DNA of 64,000 nucleotides from Clostridia bacterium (GTDB lineage Bacteria; Bacillota; Clostridia; Christensenellales; CAG-138), in contig JAFSLH010000025.1 of NCBI GenBank assembly GCA_017448545.1, forward strand, positions 1-64,000. Reading direction: 5' to 3'. Position numbers and translations under genes: made by a program. The notes under the pieces are model-generated. The model had not been told where the DNA came from, searched no databases, and was given only the letters and a program-made list of their open reading frames with translations. Shown piece by piece: positions 12,759 to 22,877 of the stretch; position 1 is the first letter of the stretch; every line of letters starts with the position of its first letter.

Positions 12759-12809
12759 AATATGAAAATTTGCCGGATCGGCGTCTTTCTCGGAAAGGAG
12801 TTTCTTCTC

Positions 12810-13823
12810 ATGATCGGAGAATACCTGTTTCATATCGGCTCGTTCGGCGTTCCGTCGATGGGCTTCTGCATTCTGGTCGGAACGATCCTCGCGATGTTCC
12901 TCTGCTACTACGCAAAGCGGTTCAGCAGCCTCGACTGGAACGACGAAATCCTGGACGGCGTGATCTGGGCCGTCATCGGCGGCTTCATCGGCATGAAGGT
13001 TCTGTACTGGATCGTCACGCCCGACGAATTCCTCGCCGTGTTCCGCGATTTTTCCTGGAAGCGGCTGCTCAGCCTGATCACCAGCGGCATGGTCTTTTAC
13101 GGCGGACTCGTCGGCGGCGTCGCGGGCTTGTTGCTGCTCTGCCGCAAGAGGAAGCGCAATTTCTTCACGTTTGCGGACCTGATCCTGCCGTGCTTCTGCG
13201 TCGCGCACGCGGGGGGCCGGATCGGCTGTTTGCTCGTCGGCTGCTGCTACGGCGTGGCGGAGGGACAAAGCTGCTTCGGCGGGCTCTGCACCTATCACGG
13301 CGCGCTTGCCGTCCGGTATCTGAACGGCACGATGCGGCTGCCCGTGCCGCTGCTCGAGGCGATCTTCCTGCTGCTGCTCGCGGGGCTGCTGCTGTTCCTT
13401 CTGAAGATCAACAAGCACCGCGGCACGGTCACCGGCTGGTACCTCGTCCTGTACGCGATCTGGCGGTTCTTCATTGAATATTTCCGCGGCGACGAAGTGC
13501 GCGGCATCTACGGCGTGTTCTCGACCTCGCAGTGGATCAGCATCGCGATCCTGGCCGCCGGCGTCGTGATTCTTGTGCTCTCGCGCAAGTGGCCGAAGGA
13601 CGAACCGATCCGTGAGTTTGCGGAGGACGATCTCGTCGTGCCGCCGGAAGAGCCCGAACCGATGCCGGAGCAGGAAATGCCCGAAGAACCGGACGAAGTC
13701 GCCGAGACGGAAGACGTCGCCGCCGTGGAGGAAGTCGCGGAAACGGCCGATGCAGGCGAAGAAATCGCTGCTCCCGACGCAGCGCCTGCGTCGGACGACG
13801 GAGCCGGGGACAGCGCAGAATGA
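12810..13823 (+). CDS. lgt: Prolipoprotein diacylglyceryl transferase Lgt with acidic tail
   Basis: Transfers diacylglycerol from phosphatidylglycerol to the lipobox Cys of prolipoproteins at the membrane. The protein is 337 aa with about seven hydrophobic helices. The Lgt signature appears as HAGGRIGCLLVGCCYG, with Cys where enterobacterial Lgt has Asn/Glu, as in many clostridial forms. YRFFIEYFRGDE-type residues follow. The last 70 or so residues form a Glu/Pro/Ala-rich acidic tail absent from most Lgt proteins. The ATG at 12810 is chosen because AAGGAG sits 9 bp upstream; an earlier ATG adds 16 residues without a ribosome site. It overlaps capA by ATGA. Confidence 0.9.
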   Translation: MIGEYLFHIGSFGVPSMGFCILVGTILAMFLCYYAKRFSSLDWNDEILDGVIWAVIGGFIGMKVLYWIVTPDEFLAVFRDFSWKRLLSLITSGMVFYGGLVGGVAGLLLLCRKRKRNFFTFADLILPCFCVAHAGGRIGCLLVGCCYGVAEGQSCFGGLCTYHGALAVRYLNGTMRLPVPLLEAIFLLLLAGLLLFLLKINKHRGTVTGWYLVLYAIWRFFIEYFRGDEVRGIYGVFSTSQWISIAILAAGVVILVLSRKWPKDEPIREFAEDDLVVPPEEPEPMPEQEMPEEPDEVAETEDVAAVEEVAETADAGEEIAAPDAAPASDDGAGDSAE

Positions 13824-18162: not shown

Positions 18163-19611
18163 TTACCAGGGGCGGCGGGCGTTGACGAAGTTGCGCTTCC
18201 AGTAGTTGGACAGGGAACGCTTGACCACCTTGCCGTTGCCGGACGAGGCGTCGATCATCATACCGCCGCCGATATAGATGCCGGTATGGCTGACGCTCTT
18301 GGAATCGTCGCTGCGGAAGAACAGGATATCGCCGCGCTGCAGATCGCTGATCGACTTGATTTCCTTCCAGTCCGACTTTTTCGAGTAGCCGGACGCGCTG
18401 AGCCGCGTGACCGAAACGCCCGCCTGCCGCAGGCAGTAATAGACGAAGCCGGAGCAGTCGAAGCTGTTTGGGCCGCGGTCGCCGAGGACGTATTCGCAGC
18501 CGATCTTCGACGTGGCGGCGGAAATGAATTTATCGATCCGCTTCTCCTTCGAGGACTGCTCCTGCGCTTTCTTTTCGGCTTCCTTCGCCTTCTGCTCCTC
18601 CGCCTTCTGCTTGGCGGCTTCCTCCTTGGCCTTGCGCTCGGCTTCTTCCGCTTCGGCCTTCTGCTTCGCTTCGAGCGATTCGGAAATCTTCGCGTCGTCG
18701 CTGTACAGCTTGTCGAGCGTCTTCTCCCCCGCCTTGCCGTCCGCCGTCAGCTTGTTCCGCTTCTGGAACGCCATGACGGCTTCGGTCGTGATCGCGCCGT
18801 AGACGCTGTCCACCTGACTGCTCGAGAGGTAGCCGAGGTCGACGAGCTGCTCCTGCAGCATCTTGACGTCGCGGCCCTCCGCGCCCTCTTTCAGCGTGTA
18901 CTTCTGCGCGTCGCCGCTGTAGAGGAGTTCGAGCGTCTGCGTTCCCGCAACGCCGTCCATTTCCAGTCCGTGCTGTCGCTGGAACAGCTTGACCGCGTAT
19001 TCGGTCGCGCTGCCGTAATAGTTCGTCGGCTCGTCGATTTCGAGGTAGCCGAGTTTGATCAGCCGCTTTTGCAGCGTCAGGACTTCGTCCCGCTCGTCGT
19101 GCTTTTTCAGCACCAGCGGTTCGGCGGTCGGTTCCGCCGCAATCACGACGGTTTGCTGTTCCGCTGCCGCAGCGTTCCCCTCAGCGACCGCTTCCGCCTG
19201 TGCTTCGGGTTCGGACAGCGCTTCGGGCAGCGCCGGTTCGGCTTCGATCCACGCTGATTCGGCTTCGGACAGCGCTTCGTCCGGTTCGGGCATCGCGCGC
19301 TCGATCGGTTCGGCGGCCTCGTCGCTTTCCGTGACAGCCGCGCGCACGGCGTTCCCCCTGCGGCAGGCCGACACGCCGACGGACAGCGCGATGATAAACA
19401 GCAGCAGCGCAAACACGAAGACGACCGACGCAGCGATCATGCGCTGCCGGTCGAGACTCTGCGCGCGAAACCGCTTCCAAAGCCGGCCGGCCCATGCGCC
19501 GATCGCCTTTGCAGCGGTCACAACGATATGCTGAACGGTTTGCCAAACCGTGCCGAGGACGGCGCCCGCGGACGATCCGGCGGTTCGATTGTTCGATCTG
19601 TTTCCTTCCAT
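18163..19611 (-). CDS. Membrane-anchored NlpC/P60 endopeptidase with two peptidoglycan-binding domains
   Basis: 482-aa cell-wall hydrolase. Cytoplasmic N-terminus, one transmembrane helix (about residues 60-82), acidic Glu/Ala/Pro spacer to about 165, two PG_binding_1 domains (about 170-230 and 240-305), a Lys/Glu/Ala coiled coil (about 310-355), then the NlpC/P60 domain. Catalytic Cys lies in NSFDCSGFVYY, His in SVSHTGIYIGGG, and the third polar residue lies in the MIDASSG region. It probably cleaves D-iGlu-diaminopimelate bonds in wall peptides. It is transcribed alone, convergent with the importer operon and divergent from the radical SAM pair. Confidence 0.9.
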   Translation of the reverse strand: MEGNRSNNRTAGSSAGAVLGTVWQTVQHIVVTAAKAIGAWAGRLWKRFRAQSLDRQRMIAASVVFVFALLLFIIALSVGVSACRRGNAVRAAVTESDEAAEPIERAMPEPDEALSEAESAWIEAEPALPEALSEPEAQAEAVAEGNAAAAEQQTVVIAAEPTAEPLVLKKHDERDEVLTLQKRLIKLGYLEIDEPTNYYGSATEYAVKLFQRQHGLEMDGVAGTQTLELLYSGDAQKYTLKEGAEGRDVKMLQEQLVDLGYLSSSQVDSVYGAITTEAVMAFQKRNKLTADGKAGEKTLDKLYSDDAKISESLEAKQKAEAEEAERKAKEEAAKQKAEEQKAKEAEKKAQEQSSKEKRIDKFISAATSKIGCEYVLGDRGPNSFDCSGFVYYCLRQAGVSVTRLSASGYSKKSDWKEIKSISDLQRGDILFFRSDDSKSVSHTGIYIGGGMMIDASSGNGKVVKRSLSNYWKRNFVNARRPW

Positions 19612-19775: not shown

Positions 19776-20132
19776 ATGAAACAGCAAAAAATGACCGATT
19801 ACAAGCCGAGCTACCCGAAACGGTTCTTTCAGGGTGCGGCGATCACCGCGGCGACGGTGCTTGCGCTCTCTCCGATGACCGGCTGCAAGCCGCTCAGTGA
19901 GCTGACGACCTCCGGCGCGGTCGCGATCGATCAGCCGACGGACGATCCCGGCGAATTGGTGCTGGACGGCGAAGTCATGATTGACGAGCCGACCGACGAA
20001 GGAACGCTGCCGGATGAAACCGAAGCGTGCCCGGATGACGTGCTTGTGACCGACGGCGAAGTCGCGGTGGACGAACCAGACGACATGGTGCGGACGGACG
20101 GCATTGTGGCCCTGCCCGAAGACGGCGAATAA
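19776..20132 (+). CDS. Acidic repeat protein, probable substrate of the adjacent radical SAM enzyme
   Basis: 118 aa. The N-terminal KRFFQGAAITAATVLAL segment ends in MTGC (Cys37), resembling a lipoprotein or other export signal. The rest is strongly acidic. It carries a repeated motif: SGAVAIDQPTD (46-56), DGEVMIDEPTD (64-74), DGEVAVDEPDD (93-103) and a degenerate DGIVALPEDGE at the C-terminus. A second Cys is at 85. The ATG is chosen with AAGGGGAA upstream. It lies 17 bp before the radical SAM gene, the normal arrangement for a peptide substrate and its maturase. I know no named family for this repeat; the substrate role is inference. Confidence 0.7.
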   Translation: MKQQKMTDYKPSYPKRFFQGAAITAATVLALSPMTGCKPLSELTTSGAVAIDQPTDDPGELVLDGEVMIDEPTDEGTLPDETEACPDDVLVTDGEVAVDEPDDMVRTDGIVALPEDGE

Positions 20133-20149
20133 TCCGAACGGAGGGCGCT

Positions 20150-21232
20150 ATGAACCTGACGCTGCACCTGACCGCGGACTGCAATCTGCGCTGCCGGTAC
20201 TGCTATGAAACGCATCGGCGCGTCCGGATGTCCGAAGAAACGGCGAAACAGGCGGTCGATCTTGCGTTTGCCGCAGGGCATCCGAAAAACGGCTTCTCGC
20301 TGTTCGGCGGGGAGCCGCTGCTCGAGCGCGGACTGATCGAGTCCGTGTGCCGGTATGCCTCGGACCGCGCCGCGCGGGAGGGCAAGGCCGTCCGGTTCAA
20401 GATGACGACGAACGGGGCGCTGCTGGACGAGGATTTTTTGCGCTTTGCAACGGCGCACGGAATCGAGATCGCGCTCTCGCACGACGGGCTGCTGCAGGAC
20501 GTGCAGCGCCTGACGCGGGACGGCAGCCCGACGCGGGAAACGCTGGAGCCGGTCGTGGATCTGCTGCTGGCGTATCAGCCGAACGCGGTCGCGATGCAGA
20601 CCGTGATGGCCGAAAACGTCGGCCGAATGGCGGACTCGGTAGAATGGCTGTATCGGCGCGGGTTTTCGCGCGTCAACACGGCGATCGACTACCGGCCGGA
20701 CGCCGGCTGGGACGACGGTTCGATGGCCGTGCTGCGCGCGCAGTACGAGCAGGTCGCGGCGCTTTGCGAAAGGCAGTTCGACACGGAACGGCCCCTCCGG
20801 TACCTGAATTTTTGGTCCAAGATCGCCGCGTACCTGAACAACCGGCCGTGCCTCGAATGCAAGCTCGGCGTTCGCCAGCCCTCGGTCGCGCCGGACGGAA
20901 CGATCTACCCGTGCAACCAGTTTCTGAACCTGCCGGACTACCGGATGGGCGACGTGACGAGCGGGATCGACAAAGCGCGGCAATGGGCGATCGTGCAAAA
21001 ATCGCTTGCGCCGGAACCGGACTGCCTTGGGTGCGCGATCGCGGACCGCTGCCGCCACCATTGCGCGTGCCTGAACTTCAGCCTGACCGGCGACATGCAT
21101 ACGGTTGCGCCGGTGCAGTGCGAGCATGAACGCATCCTGATCCCGATCGCGGACGCGCTCGCCGGGCGGCTCTATGCCCGCGGAAGCGTCCGGTTTTTGC
21201 AGCAGTATACGGGGGATGAACTCGCGCAGTGA
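20150..21232 (+). CDS. Radical SAM/SPASM peptide-modifying enzyme
   Basis: 360-aa radical SAM enzyme. The CxxxCxxC cluster motif is at Cys11, Cys15 and Cys18 (ADCNLRCRYCYE), the GG[E]PL region is FGGEPLLERG, and an auxiliary-cluster SPASM domain covers about residues 240-330. SPASM cysteines appear as CLECKLG, YPCNQF, CLGCAIADRCRHHCAC and VQCEH. Such enzymes crosslink or epimerise ribosomal peptides or mature sulfatases. No sulfatase is nearby, while a repeat-bearing small protein is immediately upstream with the same strand and a 17-bp gap. GGAGGGCGCT precedes the ATG. Confidence 0.88.
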   Translation: MNLTLHLTADCNLRCRYCYETHRRVRMSEETAKQAVDLAFAAGHPKNGFSLFGGEPLLERGLIESVCRYASDRAAREGKAVRFKMTTNGALLDEDFLRFATAHGIEIALSHDGLLQDVQRLTRDGSPTRETLEPVVDLLLAYQPNAVAMQTVMAENVGRMADSVEWLYRRGFSRVNTAIDYRPDAGWDDGSMAVLRAQYEQVAALCERQFDTERPLRYLNFWSKIAAYLNNRPCLECKLGVRQPSVAPDGTIYPCNQFLNLPDYRMGDVTSGIDKARQWAIVQKSLAPEPDCLGCAIADRCRHHCACLNFSLTGDMHTVAPVQCEHERILIPIADALAGRLYARGSVRFLQQYTGDELAQ

Positions 21233-21270: not shown

Positions 21271-21402
21271 CCGACCTTACAATCCTCCCGGCTCGACAAA
21301 GTCTCGCCAAACCGCCTGCAGCGTGCTGACAGCGGTCAATAAAGATTCTGCTTTTTCTCCCACAGGGAGCGCAGAATCTTTATCTCGTTACACAAGGAGG
21401 GC
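21271..21402. repeat. CCTCCC/GGAGGG repeat with variable insert
   Basis: CCGACCTTACAATCCTCCCG at the left and TTACACAAGGAGGGCT at the right, as at 15264. The centre is replaced by the GCCTGCAGCGTGCTGACAG segment and a GATTCTGC...GCAGAATC hairpin. Confidence 0.7.
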
Positions 21403-21506: not shown

Positions 21507-22877
21507 ATGGAACGAATCAACGTATGGACCACCTACTCCGAGGAGCAGGAACAGCAGGTGTTTGCGCTCGGCGCAAAATACCGCGCGTATCTGGACGCAG
21601 GCAAGACCGAACGGGAAGCCGCTGCAGAGACGATCCGCCGCGCCGAAGCCGCCGGTTACCGGAACCTGAACGACGTGAAGACGCTGCAGCCCGGCGACCG
21701 CGTGTACGTCAACACGATGAACAAGGCCGTGCAGCTGTACATCATCGGCAAAGCCCCGATCGAACAGGGCGTCAACATCATCGGCGCGCACATCGACAAT
21801 CCGCGGCTGGACGTGAAGCAGAACCCGCTGTATGAGGATTCCGATTTCGCGTACCTCGATACGCACTACTACGGCGGCATTAAGAAATACCAGTGGGTGA
21901 CGATCCCGCTCGCGCTGCACGGCGTCGTCGTGAAGAAGGACGGCACGACCGTTCCGGTCGTGATCGGCGAGGACGAGGACGATCCGGTCGTCGGCATTTC
22001 CGATATTCTGGTCCACCTTTCCGCTTCACAGCTCGACAAAAAAGGCGCCGTCGTCGTTGAGGGCGAGGATTTGGACGTGATCGTCGGCGGCAAGCCGCTC
22101 GCGGGCGAGGAGAAAGAGCCGTTCAAGGCGACGGTGCTTTCGATCCTGCAGGAGAAGTACGGCATCGAGGAGGAGGATTTTATCTCCGCCGAACTCGAAG
22201 TCGTTCCCGCGGGCAAGAGCCGCGATTTCGGTCTCGACCGCAGCATGATTCTCGGCTACGGCCACGACGACCGCGTTTGCGCGTTTGCGCAGATCGAAGC
22301 GATGTTCAGCGTGACCGAAACGCCGGACGTGACCTGCTGCTGCGTGCTGGTCGACAAGGAAGAGATCGGCAGCGTCGGCGCGACGGGGATGCGGGCCCGG
22401 TATTTTGAGAACGCGATGGCGGAAATCCTCAATAAGTGCGGCGCATACAGCGACCTGACCCTGCGCCGCGCGCTGCAGAACAGCCGGATGCTCTCCTGCG
22501 ACGTCAGCGCGGGCTACGATCCGCTCTACGCCGCGAACTTTGAGCGCAAGAACGCTGCCTTCGTCGGCCGCGGCGTGTGCTTCAACAAGTTCACCGGTTC
22601 GCGCGGCAAGTCCGGCAGCAACGACGCGAACGCCGAATACCTTGCCAAGCTGCGCAAGATCATGGACGACAACGACGTGCATTTCCAGACCGCGGAGCTC
22701 GGCAAAGTCGACGTCGGCGGCGGCGGAACGATCGCCTACATCTGCGCGCTGTACGGCATGGAGGTCGTGGACAGCGGCGTTGCCGTGCTCTCGATGCACG
22801 CGCCGTGGGAGATCATCGACAAGGGCGACCTGTACGAAGCGAAAAAGGCGTACCGCGCCTTCCTGCTGAACGCATAA
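21507..22877 (+). CDS. M18 family aminopeptidase
   Basis: 456-aa cytosolic zinc aminopeptidase of the aspartyl-aminopeptidase family. Metal ligands lie in IIGAHIDNPRLD (His and Asp), VDKEEIGSVGATGM (Glu pair) and VLSMHAPWE (C-terminal His). The central domain with GHDDRVCAFA is also characteristic. It removes N-terminal acidic or other residues from peptides. The ATG follows a good ribosome site and promoter. A flavin-reductase-like gene follows after 4 bp. Confidence 0.92.
   Translation: MERINVWTTYSEEQEQQVFALGAKYRAYLDAGKTEREAAAETIRRAEAAGYRNLNDVKTLQPGDRVYVNTMNKAVQLYIIGKAPIEQGVNIIGAHIDNPRLDVKQNPLYEDSDFAYLDTHYYGGIKKYQWVTIPLALHGVVVKKDGTTVPVVIGEDEDDPVVGISDILVHLSASQLDKKGAVVVEGEDLDVIVGGKPLAGEEKEPFKATVLSILQEKYGIEEEDFISAELEVVPAGKSRDFGLDRSMILGYGHDDRVCAFAQIEAMFSVTETPDVTCCCVLVDKEEIGSVGATGMRARYFENAMAEILNKCGAYSDLTLRRALQNSRMLSCDVSAGYDPLYAANFERKNAAFVGRGVCFNKFTGSRGKSGSNDANAEYLAKLRKIMDDNDVHFQTAELGKVDVGGGGTIAYICALYGMEVVDSGVAVLSMHAPWEIIDKGDLYEAKKAYRAFLLNA

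Follow-up and report, generated by a model that had tools for sequence, protein, structure and literature searches.

SPASM enzymes are a main source of new peptide chemistry, and their known products are mostly released peptides or cofactors. In the stretch of DNA examined here (64,000 nucleotides from a relative of rumen Clostridia, referred to as the window), one of these enzymes is encoded beside a small acidic repeat protein that appears to carry an export signal. The locus raises the question of whether the enzyme acts on a protein that is kept at the cell surface. As far as sequence can indicate, the analysis suggests that it does, and that it chemically modifies this protein in a way not yet described.

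The features of the locus are listed in Table 1. The initial annotation reported a 118-aa ORF and a 360-aa ORF, both on the forward strand with a gap of 17 bp, and they were found as described. The four copies of the repeat in the smaller protein are real, with Gly-x-Val in 4/4 copies and D-[EQ]-P-x-D in 3/4.

Table 1. Positions of the precursor and enzyme genes, their parts and selected neighbouring genes in the window.
Feature	Position	Strand	Remarks
Precursor gene, 118 aa	19776..20132	+	Leader, lipoprotein-like signal sequence and acidic four-core tail
Putative maturase-recognition leader, residues 1-16, MKQQKMTDYKPSYPKR	19776..19823	+	Y-P conservation, lowest dN/dS
Hydrophobic signal sequence, residues 17-36, then Gly-Cys37 end (putative lipidation site)	19824..19886	+	
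Core 1, SGAVAIDQPTD	19911..19943	+	Gly47 nearly invariant
Core 2, DGEVMIDEPTD	19965..19997	+	ORF translation
Core 3, DGEVAVDEPDD	20052..20084	+	ORF translation
Core 4, degenerate, DGIVALPEDGE	20097..20129	+	Gly109 nearly invariant
Ribosome-binding-site-like GGAGGG ahead of enzyme gene	20140..20145	+	Read from sequence
Radical SAM/SPASM enzyme, 360 aa, without N-terminal RRE	20150..21232	+	
CX3CX2C radical SAM cluster motif, C11/C15/C18	20180..20203	+	Invariant, 17 sequences
SPASM cysteines C237 to C324	20858..21121	+	Invariant, 17 sequences
Strong hairpin 3' of enzyme gene	21339..21383	+	MFE, shuffles
lgt, prolipoprotein diacylglyceryl transferase, housekeeping	12762..13823	+	Pfam LGT E = 1.9e-43
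M18 aminopeptidase gene	21507-22877	Same strand as pair	274 bp 3' of enzyme gene
NlpC/P60 peptidoglycan hydrolase with peptidoglycan-binding domains	18163-19611	minus	Divergent, adjoins pair

A contig scan identified 34 enzyme loci with enzymes 60-79% identical to that of the window. The locus records are titled Clostridia, Clostridiales, Bacillota or Christensenella, and 10/34 name a ruminant-stomach chamber. Where DNA upstream of the enzyme is available, the ORF immediately before it contains cores (33/33 loci); the remaining locus, L026, starts inside the enzyme. In addition, 103 genomes of the family were searched. Enzyme clade members were called at E <= 2.6e-69, the next matches being 1e-35 or weaker. 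Precursors were searched with a profile built from 32 precursors, against which the window precursor scored E = 7.5e-29, and matches with E <= 4.2e-10 were classified as strong. The enzyme clade was present in 43/103 genomes, a strong precursor match in 42, and both in 41 (Fisher p = 4e-25 for co-occurrence). The 34 loci and the 103 genomes share species, partly via two collections, and their counts are neither additive nor fully independent.

The possibility that the repeat protein is common without the enzyme was checked in the 103 genomes and is not borne out, as 41/42 precursor genomes contain the enzyme. The two proteins form a dedicated pair: 57/60 strong precursor places are upstream of an enzyme, on the same strand and within 1.5 kb. 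The other three are at contig ends (G043:C95, G049:C2 and G075:C68). Weaker precursor matches (E 1e-8 to 0.01) comprised further pieces of the same precursors, a reading from G056 with an internal stop, and others, mostly short stretches of long frames, that were taken for chance matches to signal sequences. One internal stop codon was seen in the enzyme at G063:C27 and in each of the precursors at G056:C77, G061:C14 and G066:C103.

The precursors open with a Y-x-P-x-Y-P leader, which is followed by a lipoprotein-like signal sequence that ends in Cys and then by an acidic tail rich in Pro. A leader pattern caught 74 ORFs, and removal of 19 (enzyme fragments and one unrelated ORF) left 55 precursors. 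With the second precursor of L005 the set becomes 56, which was used for alignments and for the aromatic, leader and lipobox counts. The L097 and L098 precursors were missed by the leader pattern and lie outside both sets.

The consensus leader is M-K-[QIRV]-x-[KQ]-[LVI]-x-x-Y-x-P-x-Y-P-[KR]-K. Y-P is present in 56/56 precursors, the first Y in 53/56 and the P two residues on in 55/56, frequencies that are partly built in because the collecting pattern demands Y-P. Among 33 upstream ORFs picked by position, cores and acidity instead of leader, 32 contain Y-P; the 33rd (L004) is truncated where its contig ends. When 8 pairs were pooled, dN/dS was lowest in the leader (0.14), followed by the signal sequence (0.27) and the tail (0.38), and thus the precursor is under selection throughout.

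The hydrophobic stretch ends in [AG]-C in 53/55 precursors, and this Cys is invariant in the 32 rows of the precursor alignment. The initial annotation had assigned the window protein an export-like or lipobox N-terminus. Such an N-terminus is general among the precursors, 51/56 of which match a PS51257-like lipoprotein pattern, although the window protein itself misses this pattern because of Pro at -4. Nor does the window protein match a G+LPP-like pattern, which fits 23/56 precursors. A strict [LVI][ASTVI][GAS]C box is matched by only 7/56 precursors. Since the window lipobox (PMTGC) is imperfect, the protein may instead have a plain membrane anchor. The lipidation machinery of this genome comprises Lgt, which is encoded in the window, and LspA.

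Two loci have an additional precursor without a hydrophobic stretch or Cys (L014, 5429-5686, and L019, 2382-2627). Each sits between two normal precursors and retains the leader and a core, HAVGIVP. Leader and core can therefore exist apart from the export signal, an argument against reading the leader as just the n-region of a signal peptide. At L098, a leader-bearing ORF of 71 aa without a clear signal sequence contains MGSIMIPE and adjoins a normal precursor.

The tails, with a median net charge of -16, contain 1-7 cores with the consensus L-x-[LT]-x-G-x-[VI]-x-[VI]-[DE]. Counted from the core Gly, the preferred residues are L/T at -2, V/I at both +2 and +4, and D/E at +5. V/I accounts for 48% of residues at +2 and 39% at +4 in 330 Gly contexts, so these positions are enriched and not fixed; V, I, P, T, A and other residues occur. 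In orthologue alignments cores are gained and lost and linker lengths shift while the core Gly stays. Conserved cores whose number changes between relatives are what was expected of a multi-core substrate. The repeat motif itself needs revision: what is conserved is the Gly with its flanking aliphatic positions, and not D-E-P-x-D. The pair has the organization by which a RiPP system is recognised, in which the gene next to that of the modifying enzyme specifies a precursor with a conserved leader and separate cores.

The enrichment of cores was examined using shuffled sequences. The window tail has 4 occurrences of G-x-[VIPMA]-x-[VIPYLMA] after the Cys against a mean of 0.94 in 5000 composition-preserving shuffles (P(>=4) = 0.005), with a pattern chosen post hoc, after the sequences had been seen. 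The 55 precursors, for which leader and acidity but not cores had been the selection criteria, contain 195 core-pattern occurrences compared with a mean of 58.6 in 500 shuffles (sd 6.5, max 83).

These results bear on two readings in which the repeats are not substrates. In the first, the enzyme targets the Cys-anchored or leader region, or another protein, and the repeats serve only as an acidic spacer holding something away from the membrane. The leader is indeed the best conserved part, the linkers vary and have low-complexity sequence, and the type II relatives described below pair with a different, larger protein. A spacer is harder to reconcile with cores 3.3 times above shuffles, with a Gly conserved between orthologues, and with a core kept in precursors without a membrane segment, and we regard this reading as unlikely. 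In the second, the tail is a folded, bactofilin-like beta-solenoid in which the repeats are structural. Core spacing peaks at 14-18 residues (79/143), and one relative, L153, has a weak, below-cut-off match to Bactofilin (E = 0.053). The spacing is nevertheless wide (over 30 residues in 9/143), the linkers are rich in Pro and acidic residues, and in the AlphaFold model of the precursor, which is of low confidence (mean pLDDT 60) and hence little informative, the signal helix is followed by no strand. A solenoid is considered highly improbable.

The second ORF was annotated as a SPASM radical SAM enzyme, and domain searches agree. The cluster cysteines C11, C15 and C18, together with C237, C255, C292, C295, C301, C305 and C324, are invariant in 17 aligned sequences. 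The Pfam Radical_SAM model (E = 8e-17) and the NCBIfam SPASM domain model (41 bits, cut-off 27) were over their cut-offs; the Pfam SPASM model was under its own (15.9 bits, cut-off 21.5). The top NCBIfam model is PapB (NF047865) with 192.4 bits, and because this is far under the cut-off of 340 the enzyme was not filed as PapB. The SCIFF model TIGR03974 (128.8 bits, cut-off 425) and the HxsB model (83 bits, cut-off 370) were not reached either. Many of the same genomes also encode separate SCIFF-like paralogues with lower scores than the window enzyme clade; the one scanned, in a sister genome (G065), is a true SCIFF maturase with 736 bits against the cut-off of 425.

The AlphaFold model of the enzyme is confident (pLDDT 85.5) and opens with the first barrel strand. 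The closest solved folds are CteB (TMq 0.81), anSME (0.78-0.81), ChlB with its substrate leader (~0.74) and TigE (8vpo, 0.68). CteB, the SCIFF maturase (PDB 5wgg/5why) whose substrate is a Cys-rich peptide, is the best solved-structure match by both sequence and fold. It has ~98 extra N-terminal residues; the alignment begins at CteB residue 99, and hence the N-terminal RRE of SCIFF/PapB-type enzymes is absent from the window enzyme. The same genome has a PqqD-like protein, a member of the RRE family, on a different contig (C37:28348-28536, L175, in a 153-aa frame), so a free-standing RRE is possible.

These matches would be explained if the enzyme were a PapB/SCIFF-type ranthipeptide synthase that makes Cys-Asp/Glu thioethers in the tail. 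It shares the SPASM architecture with PapB, which is its best NCBIfam match as CteB is its best PDB match, and the tail is rich in Asp/Glu and in the window contains one Cys (EACPDD). The family score is less specific than it appears, as it is far below the curated cut-off and the true SCIFF maturase also scores 272 bits on the PapB model. Moreover, PapB has an RRE according to the available text of PMC9413430, which the window enzyme lacks, and the substrates differ in that they carry a signal sequence and are mostly Cys-free. With no Cys in 43/55 tails, PapB-type thioethers cannot be the general product. Thioether formation was rejected as the general chemistry on this ground and on the unmet PapB and SCIFF cut-offs, and the thioether reading as a whole is very unlikely. 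Cyclophanes were likewise rejected as the general product: F/W/Y/H residues are absent from 16/56 tails and number one in 15/56, giving 31/56 with at most one. The other 25/56 tails have two or more, and a cyclophane could still be formed in some precursors.

TvgB provides the closest Cys-free chemical precedent. In the available text of PMC9062424 it is a SPASM enzyme, like that of the window, that acts on short, Gly-containing, Cys-free repeats and converts Val of the Gly-flanked TVGG repeats to cyclopropylglycine, with 2 Da lost per Val. The tvg cluster differs in having an oxidase and transporters, and the same text mentions no signal sequence in the substrate (PMC9062424); the window-type cores differ in being acidic.

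A specific version of our main explanation is that the window enzyme, like TvgB, makes cyclopropylglycine or a dehydro-residue from a Val or Ile in each core. The enrichment of aliphatic residues at +2 and +4 and the structural match to TigE, a SPASM enzyme that makes a related cyclopropane residue, fit this version. By sequence, TigE is a weak match (41 bits), at superfamily level only, and the comparison with TvgB is by its described activity. Many cores have Pro, Thr or another residue at +2. Given the variation at +2 and +4, a single side-chain chemistry at one of these positions misfits some cores, and because V/I is not constant there this version was judged rather doubtful. For the core product in general, the leading guesses are a 2-Da loss per core (as in Val to cyclopropylglycine) or epimerisation.

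We think it probable that the two genes make up a RiPP-like system for maturing a surface protein, in which the enzyme would modify the cores, Sec would export the chain and lipoprotein processing would anchor it. In this scheme the enzyme, having no RRE domain of its own, would recognise the Y-x-P-x-Y-P leader in the cytoplasm. Each G-x-[VI]-x-[VI] core would be a target, with a hydrogen probably abstracted from one of its aliphatic residues or from its Gly. The Sec machinery would export the chain after the cores have been modified, Lgt would lipidate the Cys and LspA would cut before it. A single LspA cut would both shed the leader and anchor the modified chain outside the membrane. Having one cut do both jobs would explain why no dedicated protease or exporter was seen. 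A surface signal, an adhesin tether and a metal-binding acidic brush are guesses at the biological role.

The neighbours of the pair were surveyed at 32 loci and the window. Inspection by eye of the 22 commonest neighbour clusters revealed no dedicated protease or peptide exporter, in a survey that is weak for rare partners (spurious antisense ORFs were present at some loci, and the enzyme was caught in 24/33 stretches). The commonest neighbours, again judged by eye, were PRPP synthase, RecA, CarD-like and F420-ligase-like proteins, which are housekeeping-like and none of which is found at all loci. The M18 peptidase, flavin reductase and NlpC/P60 genes of the window had no match at 1e-10 in the 34 loci, and thus they are not regular companions of the pair. 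In 5 loci a gene that looked dipeptidase-like by eye is 2.6-4 kb off on the other strand. A role for it or for the M18 aminopeptidase in the system is conceivable. TldD/E proteases had been placed 12 kb from the pair, but the window yielded no TldD/E gene. Matches to PF01523 in this genome, which is 60% complete, are confined to contigs C16 and C34, neither of which is the window's contig, C4, and TldD/E involvement was rejected.

The next same-strand gene, the M18 aminopeptidase, lies beyond a hairpin whose outer stem is 13 bp long and whose inner stem is GC-rich. The surrounding region (21325-21400) has an MFE of -28.2 kcal/mol (z = -4.9), and 0/200 shuffles were as stable. There is no T-run at the hairpin and a terminator scan was negative; the hairpin is possibly the transcript end after the enzyme gene.

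The enzyme clade was then followed outside the family. An order sample (396 genomes) contained no match at clade level outside the family of the window. A class sample (391 genomes) contained 14 further genomes with clade members (322-377 bits) and one more partial match with an internal stop (230 bits), followed by a gap down to 175 bits. In a phylum sample (398 genomes) the clade level was reached in two genomes of other classes. Phages had only distant SPASM matches, with <=28% identity in the 5 listed of 12 records.

Surroundings were covered for 13/14 class genomes, the upstream region of L157 being left out. Five loci of one family (f74: L149, L151, L153, L154 and L156) have one to three short, repeat-bearing, lipoprotein-like ORFs each, whose leader reads [YH]-[KSR]-K-P-L-Y-A and whose tails include sequences like VELDGDVIVNT. 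At L148 a 192-aa partner combines both features. L145, L146, L147 and L150 (a C-terminal fragment) have a larger upstream partner, with an HGxGR[GS]xxGC motif where complete, and at L144 a large partner is ~0.7 kb downstream of the enzyme. The large type also occurs at the phylum-level loci L173 and L174 and in the two enzyme-only genomes of the family (G015 and G101; L101 and L099). L152 and L155 have other lipoprotein-like partners of 200-260 aa. The partners of the window, L011, L148, L153 and L099 reached no Pfam or NCBIfam cut-off.

The larger partners at L099, L101, L144, L145, L146, L147, L173 and L174 are ~200-280 aa long and mostly have a leader and a lipoprotein-like signal. They contain a [HN]GxGR[GS]xxGC...[PS].[FY]LSEEEA-like domain, and the C-terminus often resembles LREQVRDFLxWLxxxGI. 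In the enzyme tree, the repeat-type enzymes of the two families group together with those of L148 and L152 (93/96), and the large-type enzymes form a separate branch (99/98).

Y-x-x-P-x-Y-P leaders, or near variants of them, recur before different tails, for example YKAPTYPEK (L173), YKKPGYPDK (L144) and YKKPLY (L151/L153); L152 and L099 fit this form poorly. The recurrence of the leader before quite different tails is the best argument that it serves the enzyme. A broader proposal, which we hold more tentatively than an even chance would warrant, is that these proteins form a class of radical-modified surface lipoproteins in the Clostridia and neighbouring classes. The leader would precede the signal peptide, LspA would be the leader peptidase and Sec the exporter, and a single enzyme clade would install a modification needing neither Cys nor aromatic residues. 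Type I members would have multi-core acidic tails, and type II members would be the larger [HN]GxGR[GS]xxGC lipoproteins.

Other SPASM systems share parts of this arrangement. The anSME enzymes modify proteins in the cytoplasm, many of which are exported later, and convert one Cys/Ser in a CxPxR motif to formylglycine; in contrast to the window system they have no multi-core substrate or leader. HxsA/HxsB (His-Xaa-Ser) is likewise a repeat protein with a SPASM enzyme, and its repeat differs. In the literature covered, mainly open-licence papers with subscription journals and preprints mostly outside it, nothing matched the pair of enzyme and repeat lipoprotein. The substrate looks membrane-anchored, and most cores are without the Cys or aromatic residues of many known crosslinks, so the modification is likely to be of a less usual kind. 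Genome mining designed around a protease, a transporter or Cys-rich cores could miss such partner proteins. The pair consists of only two genes, and so can be tested in a single co-expression.

Two further observations concern the neighbourhoods of divergent or grouped enzymes. L100 (G101:C18) encodes a divergent clade enzyme, 39% identical, with a 263-aa lipoprotein-like protein (KPVIYLYPE) 17 bp downstream; no leader-bearing ORF was seen upstream of this enzyme. At the g23 loci L102, L103, L104, L106, L107 and L108, a membrane protein (NGNIGIGIAIGGAFGLVRFRSAPGTARDILAIFL and similar), presumably DUF4956-like, is encoded near the enzyme.
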